Source of the DNA: Nitrospira sp.
Lineage (GTDB): Bacteria > Nitrospirota > Nitrospiria > Nitrospirales > Nitrospiraceae
Assembly (NCBI GenBank): GCA_029194535.1
Contig: JARFXR010000002.1
Location: 372,001 to 436,000 of the forward strand
Direction of reading: 5' to 3'
DNA: 64,000 nt
Below are positions 23,348-47,981 of this stretch, one piece after another (position 1 is the stretch's first letter; every line of letters begins with the position of its first letter). Both the position numbers and the translations under genes were made by a program. Under the pieces are notes generated by a model. That model saw nothing but the letters and a program-made list of their open reading frames with translations. It had not been told where the DNA came from and did not search any database.

Positions 23348-24391
23348 ATGACGGATTATTCGACCCTGGCCGCAAAAGCTCTTGACGATCAACCCCTGAC
23401 GAGACCGGAAGCTCTCTCCGTCCTCACCGCACCGGACGACGAACTTCTCGCCCTACTTCACGCAGCATTCCAGGTGCGGGCCAGATATTTCGGCCGAACG
23501 GTCCGCCTGCAGATGCTCCAGAACGCGAAGAGCGGCGCTTGCCAGGAAGACTGTCATTATTGTTCCCAATCTTCCATCTCAACCGCTCCGATCGAACGAT
23601 ACAGTCTGCTCCCACAGAACCGCATGATCGAGGGTGCGCGAGAGGCCGCCGCTTCAAAGGCTCAACGGTACTGTATCGTCATCAGCGGCAGAAGCCCGCT
23701 GGACCGTGAGATCGACGAGATCGCCGGAGCCGTCCGTGCCATCAAGCAGGAAAATCCGATCCAGATCTGTTGCTCACTGGGGCTCATGAACGAACAGCAG
23801 GCGAAGCGGTTAAAGGCGGCGGGCGTGGATCGCGTGAATCACAATTTGAACACGAGCGAAGCGTTTCACGCCTCGATCTGCACGACCCACACGTTCCAAG
23901 ACCGCCTCGCAACAATCAGGAATGCCCGGGCGGCAGGATTGGAAATTTGCTCGGGCGGAATCGTCGGCATGGGCGAACAGGACGAGGACCTCATCGATCT
24001 CGCCATGGCCTTGCGCGAGGTCAAGCCGGATTCCATTCCGCTCAACACGCTGCACCCGGTGGCAGGCACTCCGTTGGAGCATTGCGACAATCTCACGCCG
24101 CAACGCTGTCTGAAAGTCCTCTGCCTGTTCCGCTTTCTCCATCCACGCACCGAGATACGTATCGCCGGCGGCCGCGAACACAACCTCCGCAGCCTGCAGC
24201 CGCTCGCCCTCTATCCAGCCGATTCGGTGTTCGTGAACGGCTACCTGACAACCCCAGGCGCACCGGCTCCAGAGGTCTGGGGCATGATCGAAGATCTGGG
24301 ATTCACGATCGAGGTGGACTACCAATCGGCTGCTGAAAAAGGCCCTCAGCTGCGTTCTCAGTCGCTCGAACCCCTCAACGTGCGGCACTGA
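23348..24391 (+). CDS. bioB: biotin synthase
   Basis: BioB is a radical-SAM enzyme inserting sulfur into dethiobiotin. The ATG at 23348 gives 347 residues. The SAM-cluster cysteines are Cys65, Cys69 and Cys72 (CQEDCHYC). Other family features are YCIVISGR, VNHNLNTSE, CSGGIVGMGE, LNTLHPVAGTPLE and RIAGGREHNLRSLQ. An upstream ATG at 23333 adds five residues. The last 20 or so codons lie inside a palindromic repeat (24328-24448), so the C-terminal tail AAEKGPQLRSQSLEPLNVRH is repeat-derived. No other bio genes are nearby. Confidence 0.95.
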   Translation: MTDYSTLAAKALDDQPLTRPEALSVLTAPDDELLALLHAAFQVRARYFGRTVRLQMLQNAKSGACQEDCHYCSQSSISTAPIERYSLLPQNRMIEGAREAAASKAQRYCIVISGRSPLDREIDEIAGAVRAIKQENPIQICCSLGLMNEQQAKRLKAAGVDRVNHNLNTSEAFHASICTTHTFQDRLATIRNARAAGLEICSGGIVGMGEQDEDLIDLAMALREVKPDSIPLNTLHPVAGTPLEHCDNLTPQRCLKVLCLFRFLHPRTEIRIAGGREHNLRSLQPLALYPADSVFVNGYLTTPGAPAPEVWGMIEDLGFTIEVDYQSAAEKGPQLRSQSLEPLNVRH

Positions 24392-24448
24392 GCACGCCTC
24401 GGGGGCCTCACTCCCTGCGGCCTTGCCGAGAACCTTTTTGAGCAGCCT
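24328..24448 (-). repeat. long palindromic repeat, copy A (overlaps 3' end of bioB)
   Basis: Read on the minus strand this element starts GGCTGCTCAAAAAGG and ends CCTTTTTCAGCAGCC, near-perfect inverted ends. In between it shares the blocks GCAAGGCCGCAGGGAGTG, CACGTTGAGGGG and CGACTGAGAACGCAGC with the copies at 46925-47040 and 47864-47965. The bioB stop (24389-24391) is inside it. I remember similar elements between genes of Nitrospira genomes. Confidence 0.8.
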
Positions 24449-24480
24449 CCGCAGCCGGTGGCAGGCTGATACGACGTCCT

Positions 24481-25017
24481 GTGGGCAGGAGAATCAGAAG
24501 ACCTCGACCTCCACGCTGCATTGTCATCGCCGGTCCCAGTGGCGCGGGAAAGACGACTTTCGCGAAGGAATTCCTCCTACGCGAAGAAGAAGTCGTCCAT
24601 TTTGGGCATGCCGACTTAATTGCCGGTGGCCTCTCACCTATCCGTCCGGAACTAGCGACTCGACAGGCAGAGCGCCTCGTGCTCTTGGAGCTGTCTCGAT
24701 TGGCGAAGGCCAGGAAGAAGTTCGCGTTTGAAAGCACGCTGAGCGGCCGAACGTATCCTCGACTGCTGAAGAAGTGGAATACCGCTGGATACCGAATAGA
24801 GATCGTGTTCTTATCCCTGTCGTGAGTCCACCTGGCACCTCAACGAATCGCGCCCCGCGTTCGCCAAGGCGGTCATGATGTGCCTCGCGCAGATGTCATC
24901 AGACGCTTTCAGAGGAGTTGGAACAACTTCCGGAAACTCTATCGACCGTTAGCCGATAAGTGGTCCGTCTACGACAATTCCACGAACGTTCCGCTGTTGA
25001 GCGAGCAAACACGATGA
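24481..25017 (+). pseudogene. zeta-toxin-like P-loop kinase, interrupted by one in-frame TGA
   Basis: From a GTG at 24481 the frame has Walker A GPSGAGKTTF (residues 18-27) and continues through FGHADLIAGGLSP and FAFESTLSG to VFLSLS, then a TGA at 24823-24825. The same frame continues VHLAPQRIAPRVRQGGHDVP and IRRFQRSWNNFRKLYRPLADKW to a TGA at 25015-25017, which is the expected C-terminal half of zeta-type or AAA kinases of this group. One base change (for example TCA to TGA) explains the break. The true stop overlaps the next ATG as ATGA. Confidence 0.8.
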
Positions 25018-25634
25018 AGCCGCCGAGACGAAAAATCACCCCAAATGCCTTTTCCCGCGCGGTTGGCCGTGCGCTCCGCAGAGCGGCGAAGGCAGCTCGC
25101 AAGACAGCCAACAAGAAACTCAAGTATTCTCCCGCCACGTCGTATGCCTCCACCGAGCATGGCGCAGTCACGGTGGCAAGATTCCTCAATTCGAGGCGAG
25201 CCGTTGAGGTGAGCATCTATGTGGTCCGAGCATTCATGAAACTCCGCGAGATGCTGGGCACGCACAGCGCCCTGGCTCAGAAACTCGCCAAACTGGAGCG
25301 TACCGTGGCAAGCCATGACGGACACACCAGGACGCTCTTTGAAGCTATCCGCCGCCTCACCTCACTCACTGCCTTGGACGGAGGAGCGGGCATGGAGAGA
25401 TCTAACATAGCGGGCGCGCCAAACAGACGGCCGACGACGTGCCGCCGTGCGACAGCATTTCGACGCTTCGTCGAAGCTTTCGAGGAGCACGCGGCCAACA
25501 GTACGAATCGGATAGCCGTGCCTGATCATCGCATGATGGCGGAACTTGAATGCCCGCTCTTCCGACGTCGAGGCTATTCCTATCTAATACCCTCCGCAAT
25601 GCTCTGTCTCGCAGTCCATCGGGCCGGAAGGTGA
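25014..25634 (+). pseudogene. chimeric ORF: zeta-partner N-terminus fused to ORF6N-type C-terminus
   Basis: The ATG at 25014 overlaps the zeta-like gene's stop (ATGA), as in an intact toxin pair. Residues 1-35 (KPPRRKITPNAFSRAVGRAL, then a basic RRAAKAARKTAN) resemble the small basic protein that commonly follows this toxin group. Residues about 50-125 instead resemble the C-terminal half of ORF6N-domain proteins (TEHGAVTVARFLNSRRAVEV, VVRAFMKLREML, AKLERTVASHDGHTRTLFEA). The remainder reads antisense through a permease-gene remnant. It looks like a deletion-fusion scar rather than a working gene. Confidence 0.6.
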
Positions 25635-25716
25635 CCCGCAATCCATGCCGCAGCTACCTCTATGGTTACCGCTTGCAAAAGTACCTCGATCGGCACGATC
25701 ATACGAATCGTCCAGC
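25573..25716 (-). repeat. duplicated 3' end of the FtsX-type permease gene (remnant copy)
   Basis: This stretch matches 27035-27177 over about 143 bases with roughly a dozen mismatches, in the same orientation. On the minus strand it still reads TIRMIVPIEVLLQAVTIEVA and WIAGHLPARWTARQSIAEGI, the last residues of the permease with several amino-acid changes, then an early stop where the intact gene has CAG. It is therefore a decayed second copy of the gene end, left of the Fic segment. Confidence 0.75.
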
Positions 25717-25743
25717 GATGCTTCTTTCATCGATGATGACACT

Positions 25744-26748
25744 TCAAGTCAGCATGTAGCGGCCGGATTTCTTGGTGCCGCTGCGTTGAACCAGCCCCGC
25801 TTCCAGAAGCGGATGCAACAGATCCATGGTTCCTTGTTTGGAGACTCGCAGGCTCTCGCGGATTTCTTTGGGCGTCATCGACCGGCGGTTCATGAGTAAC
25901 CGCAGCAACTGTTCTTGTCGCGGACGCAGCACCACCTTCGTCCGTGTGGCCCCGGCCCCCAGATGCTGAATGCGTGTCCAGACCCGATCGAGTGTGACCT
26001 GTAGCGCTCGTGCAGCGTACTCGATCCATTCCGTGAGGTCGTTCCCCTGTTTCCGCACATTCGCCAATGCGCCGTAATAGGCGGGACGGTCCTCGCTATA
26101 GACTTCGTCGACCGAAAAGATTTGGTGCGTATCGAATCCCCGGCGGCAGAGATCCCAGAGTGCCAGGGCTCGCCCCGTGCGCCCATTGCCGTCAGCGAAT
26201 GGATGAATGTCCTCGAATTGATAATGGAGAACTGCGGAGGAGATCACCGGCGACAAGGCCCCGGCATCCCTGTTCCACCACGCCAGAAGTTCAGCCATCA
26301 ATCCGCCCACGAGCTGCGGCGCTGGGGGCGTATACGGTCCCACATAGACCTGAATGTCTCGATACCGACCCGCGTCGCCTTGGTCCATCACTCAGGTGGC
26401 GAGAATCTTGTGTAGCGCGAGAATATCCTGGTGGGTAATCCGTTTTTTGTCCGCATGACGCTCAATATGGCGGAGCCCTGCAAGGTAATTCAGGACTTCT
26501 CGTCGTGCGCGCGGCGCTTCGGTAGGCAGTTCATGCCCCTCTTCGATGAGCCAGACCTGCTCCAGCGTCAAGGGATTGCCTTCGATCGCCGTCGAGCCAT
26601 GGGTATGTCTGACGCGCGCCTCGTGTTGGAGAGCAGGTATCCATGGGACTTGGACTGTCGCAGCGAGGATTCTCTCCCGCAGTACCGCGATCGCCTCGAG
26701 TTCGCCGACGAGTCGTGCGGAGACGGTGAATTTCGGCTGAAAGGACAT
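25744..26748 (-). pseudogene. Fic/DOC-family AMP-transferase, interrupted by one in-frame TGA
   Basis: The N-terminal part (ATG at 26748, MSFQPKFTVSARLVGELEAI) includes the inhibitory-helix motif STAIEGN and runs to HKILAT, then TGA (26392-26394). The same frame continues VMDQGDAGRYRDIQVYVGPY to the catalytic HPFADGNGRTGR and a C-terminal winged-helix segment. In relatives the TGA position is Gly (GGA), so one substitution explains it. Intact Fic proteins AMPylate targets and are held off by the inhibitory Glu. A GTG at 26391 could still express the catalytic half without its inhibitory helix. Confidence 0.8.
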
Positions 26749-27035
26749 GCTCACAGGGTATGTATGAGTCAAGTTATGGGTCAACCCTGCACGCGTCGAA
26801 CGAGCACCGCGTTTCTCATATCCACTGTGGTCTGGCAGAGCGCGGAGCAACTTCACCGTAGGAGCGGGGACCCGCCGAGACTCAGCCGAGAAGGAAAGCT
26901 GGAACTGACTGAGATCCTGCGGTCGCTGACCGCAGTCGATGGAATTCCAGAAGGGCGCGAAGCGCAGATTCCGCTCGGCTGAGTCCGGAAGAGTCGCTCC
27001 GAGAGGTGAGGAAGCGACTGCGCTCCGCCAGGCCG

Positions 27036-44796: not shown

Positions 44797-44805
44797 TTGA
44801 CGTTA

Positions 44806-44901
44806 TAAGCTAGGGGTGCCAGAAGGCTGAGAGTCCGCCGGAAGATCTTGGACGGACGACCCTCACAACCTGACCTGGGTAATACCAGCGTAGGGAAGCG
44901 G
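44806..44901 (+). promoter_or_regulatory. TPP riboswitch (THI element)
   Basis: The conserved aptamer segments appear in order: CTAGGGGTGCC, GGCTGAGAG, a variable stem (CCGCCGGAAGATCTTGGACGG), then ACCCTCACAACCTGACCTGG, GTAATACCAGCGTAGGGAAGC. TPP binding to such aptamers reduces expression of thiamin genes. The aptamer lies between a promoter and an intrinsic terminator upstream of thiC, so control is probably by premature termination. Confidence 0.95.
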
Positions 44902-44925
44902 AACAGCAAAAGACGCTGAGGTCTG

Positions 44926-46905: not shown

Positions 46906-46924
46906 CATGAGATCCGAATACGAA

Positions 46925-47040
46925 TGCTCAAAACAGCCTTCCAACAAGGCCGCAGGGAGCGAGGGCCCCAAGACGTACTGTTGTTAGGTACGTTGAGGGG
47001 AACGAGCGACCGAGAACGCAGTTGGAGGCTGTTTTCAGCA
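46925..47040 (+). repeat. long palindromic repeat, copy B (between thiC and thi4)
   Basis: The element begins TGCTCAAAACAGCCTTCCAAC and ends GTTGGAGGCTGTTTTCAGCA (each shown to 20 bases or just above the pairing length), so its ends are inverted. Internal blocks AACAAGGCCGCAGGGAGCG, GGTACGTTGAGGGG and CGACCGAGAACGCAG are shared with copies A and C. The terminal helix plus TTTT could end or attenuate the thiC transcript before thi4. Confidence 0.8.
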
Positions 47041-47060
47041 TTCGCTGAAGGGAGCGTACG

Positions 47061-47861
47061 ATGGGTAAGCCGAAGCCGGCCCCGCTGAGAGAACGAGACA
47101 TCACGAGACAGATCGCACGCGAGTACTACAAGGAATTCGATCAGCTCATCGAGAGCGACGTCATCATCGTCGGCGCCGGACCGTCCGGATTGATCTGCGC
47201 ACACGACCTGGCCGACATGGGATTCAAGACGGTCATCGTCGAGCAGAACCTCGCGCTCGGCGGCGGGTTCTGGCACGGCGGGTACCTGATGAACAAGGCT
47301 ACGATCTGTGCCCCGGCGCACAAGATACTCGCGGAGATCGGCGTGCCCTGCAAGAAGATCAAGGACTGCGACGGCATGTACATCGTGGATCCGCCTCACG
47401 CCACGGGTGCGCTGATCGCCGCGGCCTATCGCGGCGGCGCGAGAATCTTGAATCTTACCCGGGTCGTTGATCTGGTGCTCCGCCATGACGGGGCCTTGGA
47501 GGGAGTGGTCGTCAACAACACGACCGCCGAAATGGCCGGCCATGATCTCATCCACGTCGATCCGATCGCCTTGGAAAGCAAGGTCGTCGTCGATGCCACC
47601 GGCCACGATGCGGTCGTCGTCACCTTGTTGCATAAACGAAGCCTCTACACGGAGGTGCCGGGCAACGGTGCCATGTGGGTCGCCCGTTCGGAAGAGGACG
47701 TCATGGACCATACCGGCGAGGTCTATCCCAATTGTTTCGTCATCGGCCTGGCCGTCTCGGCCGTCCATGGCACCCCCCGCATGGGTCCGGCCTTCGGATC
47801 TATGTTACTATCCGGTCGGTACGGAGCGGAGTTGATCAAAAAGAAACTGAAGAATGAATGA
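47061..47861 (+). CDS. thi4: Thi4-family thiazole synthase (sulfide-dependent type)
   Basis: Thi4 proteins build the thiazole of thiamin from NAD and glycine. The 266-residue product has the FAD/NAD-binding GAGPSGLICAHDL (about 39-51), the GGGFWHGGYLMN loop and the C-terminal GTPRMGPAFGSMLLSG. At the position of the sulfur-donating Cys of yeast Thi4 it has His165 (LIHVDP), as in the archaeal enzyme that uses free sulfide catalytically. It follows thiC, so the pair supplies both thiamin halves, and it is flanked by two repeats. Confidence 0.9.
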   Translation: MGKPKPAPLRERDITRQIAREYYKEFDQLIESDVIIVGAGPSGLICAHDLADMGFKTVIVEQNLALGGGFWHGGYLMNKATICAPAHKILAEIGVPCKKIKDCDGMYIVDPPHATGALIAAAYRGGARILNLTRVVDLVLRHDGALEGVVVNNTTAEMAGHDLIHVDPIALESKVVVDATGHDAVVVTLLHKRSLYTEVPGNGAMWVARSEEDVMDHTGEVYPNCFVIGLAVSAVHGTPRMGPAFGSMLLSGRYGAELIKKKLKNE

Positions 47862-47863
47862 AG

Positions 47864-47965
47864 GTCTCCAGCAAGGCCGCAGGGAGTGCGGATCGGAGGC
47901 GTACGTCTGAGAGTGTTGGGGAGTTCGTACGACTGAGAACGACGCTGGAGGCGTTTTTCAGAAGC
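47864..47965 (+). repeat. long palindromic repeat, copy C (after thi4)
   Basis: Starting at the thi4 stop, AGGTCTCCAGCAAGGCCGC and AGGGAGTG match copies A and B. GAGGCGTACG, TTCGTACGACTGAGAACG and GCTGGAGGCGTTTTTCAG complete the element. The arms CTCCAGC and GCTGGAG pair across about 80 bases. Its left end is less conserved than in the other copies and may run into the thi4 C-terminus. Confidence 0.7.
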
Positions 47966-47981
47966 TGCATCATCGCATCAT

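Follow-up and report, generated by a model that had tools for sequence, protein, structure and literature searches.

Organization of the thi4 and bioB regions

The window, a 64,000-nucleotide stretch of Nitrospira sp. contig JARFXR010000002.1 (positions 372,001 to 436,000), contains three copies (A, B and C) of a palindromic repeat, two of them flanking thi4 and the third at the 3′ end of bioB. The features are as follows.

23348..24391 (+): bioB, whose last residues (about 330–347) are read from copy A
24325-24450 (−): copy A, hairpin-only element, 126 nt; fold z −4.2; covariance model R1, 113.6 bits
24411..24426 (−): conserved 5′ core of copy A, GCAAGGCCGCAGGGAG
44802..44913 (+): TPP riboswitch upstream of thiC; Rfam RF00059, 64.9 bits
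45016..46905 (+): thiC, open reading frame, upstream neighbour of thi4
46921..47044 (+): copy B, hairpin-only element in the thiC/thi4 spacer; fold z −8.24; model R1, 112.7 bits
46944..46959 (+): conserved 5′ core of copy B, ACAAGGCCGCAGGGAG
47012..47018 (+): conserved 3′ core of copy B, GAGAACG; columns 0.89–0.99 conserved over 166 copies
47061..47861 (+): thi4, open reading frame of 266 aa between copies B and C; neighbours conserved in relatives
47849..47969 (+): copy C, decayed hairpin-only element, left outer arm lost, overlapping the thi4 3′ end; model R1, 60 bits
47871..47886 (+): conserved 5′ core of copy C, GCAAGGCCGCAGGGAG

All three copies lie where the initial annotation had placed them, and copies A and B are near-perfect hairpins (−66.4 kcal/mol each) with no equally stable shuffle; the structure of copy C as it stands is not significant (z −1.75). 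The sequence blocks that had been listed as shared are real, but copy B carries CGACCGAGAACG and not CGACTGAGAACG. Copy C starts within the final codons of thi4, and copy A extends into the bioB reading frame at its 3′ end. Neither a YTAR duplication nor the terminal inverted repeat (TIR) of the long-form copies described below is recognisable in copies A, B or C, so that their mobility rests on family membership, and all three are old, hairpin-only members of the family.

Copies B and C do bracket thi4 in the same orientation, both on the plus strand, one before and one after the gene, and it had been proposed from this arrangement that recombination between copies could have moved the thi4 unit. 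However, two patterns speak against thi4 being a mobile unit of this kind. First, the order thiC–thi4–TPR is constant in 16/16 relatives inspected, element-free ones included, and this synteny rules out a mobile thi4 cassette. Secondly, the two sites are occupied in different sets of species, as expected of separate insertions: the B site in the window's own genome, G001, G014, G019 and G023, with the orthologous copy absent from G003, and the C site in the own genome, G002, G003, G004, G005, G010, G019 and G038, with better preserved copies in G003, G010, G002 and G005. Across the 16 relatives the two thi4 spacers contain 0, 1 or 2 elements, always in the same orientation. Movement of thi4 through copies B and C is thus exceedingly improbable, and the bracket is best read, from these comparisons, as two old, independent insertions. 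We note that the thi4 3′ spacer of element-free relatives (L209, L212, L218, L222, L223) often contains other, unrelated palindromic repeats, for example of the TAGCTGATTGCTG and GCGTATAGC types.

At bioB an empty site is available, since G001, G003 and G010 read GACTACCA^GCAGCCGG where the own genome has the 126-nt copy A, and homology to the G001 BioB protein ends at residue 329. The G019 tail at this position resembles a decayed copy, and the insertion may therefore be older than the empty sites suggest. The BioB C-terminal residues encoded at 24336-24391 come from the copy A antisense strand, the element having replaced the C-terminus, which in relatives terminates DYQQPVAG or similar. The segment of about 2.6 kb 3′ of copy A (24451-27033) is missing from the syntenic position in G001; by eye only, its open reading frames suggest a P-loop kinase (zeta-toxin-like) and a Fic-type protein.

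Size and distribution of the repeat family

A search with the 16-mer core, allowing up to two mismatches, gave 41 genome matches against 4 for the reversed control. The covariance model scan proposed in the initial annotation was carried out with model R1, built from 21 own-genome copies, and gave 61 own-genome matches at E≤0.1, matches in 41/41 Nitrospirales genomes sampled (1–87 per genome), and matches in 51/118 genomes across the phylum Nitrospirota. The family is neither confined to the three copies first seen nor without covariation in its stems. A 20-mer scan of GTDB contigs recovered Nitrospirota records almost exclusively, the exceptions being two records, labelled Pseudomonadota and Nitrosospira respectively, that may be mislabelled contigs or contaminants. 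Spread by plasmids or phages was considered and set aside, the consensus having no match in plasmid and phage records; a viral IMG/VR contig of 4.7 kb contains a single copy (L396:473-594; 87 bits) whose ends are of the CAGGCTGTTGAAAAAC type.

Within the window Rfam at its gathering score matched the TPP riboswitch only, leaving the hairpin unmatched, and six related loci searched at E≤0.5 gave weak unrelated matches only; a known RNA family was accordingly ruled out. The core sequences searched for were not found in the literature, nor was a description of a Nitrospira MITE. Several copies (L005, L007, L008, L017, L024) are enlarged by 30–60 or more bases around the hairpin loop, and a number of these loop-extended copies share a CACCC-rich stretch and a small hairpin (e.g. 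GAGTTGC...AACTC), which gives the impression of a second small repeat inserting at this point. Intergenic sequences of Salmonella (ffh/rpsP, L397:1197-1238) and Klebsiella (dnaN/recF, L398:1201-1231) match the apical 30 nt of one distant element (GCGGAGCGTACACG-AGTACGTGAGCAT), with weak model scores only.

Ends and target duplications

Members of the family are non-coding, multicopy (1–87 per genome) and 122–205 bp in length. Alignment of the flanks of 166 distinct copies shows that conservation stops at a YTAG just beyond the right end, and that about half of the copies contain an extra left module beginning YTAGCAGGCTGTTGAAAAAC; the boundary and the module together define a full element of about 200 bp with TIRs. 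The young, long-form copies of this size consist of a left TIR, a variable module of about 60 nt, and then the 122-nt hairpin. The TIRs are 16 bp long, of the CAGGCTGTTGAAAAAC type on the left and CTTTTTCAACATCCTG on the right in long-form copies, and the right TIR sits in the 3′ arm of the hairpin.

The target duplication is a 4-bp YTAR. In 31 of 75 long-form copies the left and right 4-mers agree, against 14 expected (permutation p<1e-4), and 30/39 of those with YTAR on both sides have identical ones. In G093 a burst has left five nearly identical copies, whose duplications are all matched (5/5: CTAG/CTAG, CTAA/CTAA, CTAG/CTAG, CTAA/CTAA and CTAA/CTAA), and further empty sites were found at L146/L145, L198/L142, L049/L179 and L120/L090. 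Many copies are hairpin-only, and independent movement is clear for few of these (L120/L090). The earlier suggestion of a mobile non-coding repeat is supported by the TIRs, the matched 4-bp duplications, the empty sites and the matching autonomous insertion sequences (ISs) described below.

A hairpin with a strand-specific fold, together with a copy A that shows no visible target duplication, could also suggest a palindrome of the REP kind, mobilised as single-stranded DNA by an HUH/Y1 transposase of the RAYT or IS200/IS605 type, and an IS200/REP model was considered for copy A; it was dropped after the young copies gave matched YTAR duplications. REPs are 20–40 bp long, carry GTAG or CGTC tags and are associated with Y1 transposases (PMC3733652). 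The Nitrospira repeat resembles REP/BIME sequences with RAYTs in consisting of extragenic palindromes, tens of copies of which lie near gene 3′ ends, but it differs in its length of about 120–205 nt, and in having TIRs and matched 4-bp duplications in common with a DDE-transposase IS, which are not HUH features. We consider an HUH-type origin very unlikely.

A partner insertion sequence

An autonomous element between inverted MITE ends was looked for in the first locus set and rejected, as the open reading frames there are ordinary genes. The partner was instead sought among PF01609 (DDE_Tnp_1) transposases in twelve genomes, followed by a family protein search, and proved to be IS5/IS1182-like elements of 1.31–1.38 kb that agree with the MITEs in TIR subtype and in the YTAR-type duplication. 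The G093 IS is 1316 bp long with the target duplication TTAG and the perfect TIR CAGGCTGCGGAAAAAC, and has an early TGA in that copy; the IS in the own genome (G000:C1:164509-165875) has the TIR CAGGCTGTTGACAAAC and an open transposase gene, with the flanking 4-mers CTAG and TTAG. Where the ends of further ISs could be recognised, the TIRs are of the CAG type and both flanks are YTAR 4-mers, in most cases identical to each other. Each of three TIR subtypes, TTGACAAAC, GCGGAAAAAC and TTGAAAAAC, is present in both ISs and MITEs, with GCGGAAAAAC common to the IS and the MITEs of G093 and TTGACAAAC common to the IS and the young MITEs of the own genome. The transposases match the NCBIfam IS5_4 and IS1182 models (NF033581/NF033551) and the Pfam domains DUF772 and DDE_Tnp_1.

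The MITE thus has its TIR and YTAR duplication in common with IS5/IS1182-type elements, but it lacks a transposase and shows little homology to the IS outside the TIR. A hairpin was looked for within the partner ISs and not found, so that the folded core is not needed by the IS itself. In distant families a partner IS was not found, and for family f12 a search for a partner with GTTGACGCTGAAAAAT ends gave only short-spaced pairs (up to ~440 nt) among the matches listed.

Bacterial MITEs are 70–300 bp long, intergenic, bounded by TIRs and a target duplication, mobilised by ISs in trans, and able to fold as RNA (PMC3733652, PMC10969869). The Nitrospira element is like Correia/NEMIS, RUP, Nezha and QMITE in being short and non-coding, with TIRs, a target duplication and an IS with the same TIR. 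It differs from them in that its hairpin core is absent from the partner IS, contains invariant tandem G.A mismatches and is common to elements with other ends throughout the phylum, and in its strong preference for stop codons. The multicopy intergenic sequences of Geobacter metallireducens (PMC2700814) may also be among the closest known systems. On the strength of its ends, duplications and matching ISs, we regard the repeat as very probably a MITE, a small non-autonomous transposon with a conserved hairpin, that an IS5/IS1182-like transposase would mobilise in trans. The class itself is known, and the partner is now identified at the sequence level.

Placement at gene ends

Placement was counted with a home-made gene caller. 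Copies whose right end is a YTAR abut a gene stop codon exactly in 51/84 cases, while stop codons account for 90/484 (18.6%) of the YTAR sites outside genes, an excess of about threefold over available sites (p about 1e-17). The YTAR condition itself favours stops in short-form copies, and the figure for long-form copies alone (29/56 at stop-codon sites, p 2e-8) is therefore the safer one. Insertion at a YTAR containing TAA or TAG leaves an intact stop codon on the gene side; the stop codon then lies in the target duplication and the gene remains whole, which partly accounts for the crowding of copies at gene 3′ ends. Such stop-sparing insertion, together with selection against hits in promoters and coding sequence, may be enough to explain the neat flanking of genes.

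Copies within 300 nt of genes lie between convergent pairs in 34 cases and divergent pairs in 7 (p 2.5e-5), and this preference for gene 3′ ends would also be expected of a bidirectional intrinsic terminator or 3′-end stabiliser that was spread or kept for ending transcripts, with the transposon ends incidental. The GC-rich inner stem is flanked by A- and T-tracts in most lineages and the stem pairs covary, both of which fit such a role, as does the locus G000:C2:38484 (L014/L039 vs L268), where in G001 a short hairpin resembling a terminator shares the outer stem. However, lineages that have no T-tracts (G046, G117) retain the core, and between co-directional genes neither orientation is favoured (49:63, p 0.22). 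Copy B lies inside the thiC–thi4 unit, where termination would cut off thi4, and a simple terminator scan flags none of copies A, B and C; the T-tract of the copies is present and paired into the outer stem. Nor do the TIRs, target duplications and partner IS need a terminator. Judged on these sequence features, a terminator or stabiliser role as the reason for the repeat is rather doubtful. In the G001 hairpin (L268) the outer-stem bases are compensated and the core is absent, as if a terminator-like stem had either lost or acquired a core.

A conserved, strand-specific hairpin core

The hairpin core consists of AAGGCCGCAG and GAGAACG, with tandem G.A mismatches and G.U pairs at the apex. Among the 21 own-genome copies double changes occur in 23/33 pairs, against 10.2 in shuffled data and far lower values in slid controls. 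Of the 166 copies, 153, 123 and 120 retain the three tandem GA/GA mismatches, respectively, and GAGAACG is 0.89–0.99 conserved in the 3′ arm, which was not used for fetching loci. Because 118 loci were fetched by a 20-mer, conservation of the 5′ core in that set is partly by construction. Cells with G.U outnumber those with A.C by 206:117 outside the two apical wobble pairs and by 233:15 in the apical helix, which suggests that the sense strand is the folding one.

In other Nitrospirota families the core recurs as GCAAGG ... GAGGCGTAC / GTACGTTGAGG ... AACGnnGC, and the outer arms differ widely among those families (TGACGCTCAAAAAT, CAAGTCGCAGTCAG, GGTAGTTGCATTC, CCGTGACAAGAACCG). The deep alignment contains 316 covarying cells vs 97, with a covariation score of 0.62 against 0.17 for shuffled data, a score somewhat inflated by the fitting of the alignment to the model. 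Of the roles first suggested for the repeat, that of a structured RNA thus stands at the level of a strand-specific, covarying fold, which could be formed by RNA or by single-stranded DNA.

Template switching between palindrome arms would act on any DNA palindrome and would couple both arms, and could produce covariation by repairing mismatches, with no selection on the fold. It should, however, erase internal mismatches, and yet few positions are as conserved as those of the tandem G.A pairs and the AAGGCC/GAGAACG loop; moreover, the apical G.U is kept as a wobble, with 137 G.U and 0 A.C at one pair. A purely mutational origin of the covariation is thus improbable.

The maintenance of the core would be accounted for by recognition of a fold that one strand adopts, either as RNA or as single-stranded DNA. 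The lack of orientation bias noted above argues against a general cis role in host transcripts and is in keeping with one in the life of the element itself. The novelty lies in a strand-specific core that is conserved among elements with different ends. We tentatively suggest that this core, as RNA or single-stranded DNA, could be a structured module in its own right, representing a new family, that has been carried between different transposon ends across the Nitrospirota; a fixed core with changing arms would imply that some conserved activity or binding partner favours the carrier element's spread or its tolerance.

Together these observations explain a large palindromic intergenic repeat family of nitrifying bacteria, name the transposon that probably moves it, and demonstrate gene sparing for insertion at YTAR stop codons. 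They also raise the question of why a MITE keeps a hairpin that its parent IS is without, and expose a deeply conserved, strand-specific fold for which the transposase has no need.
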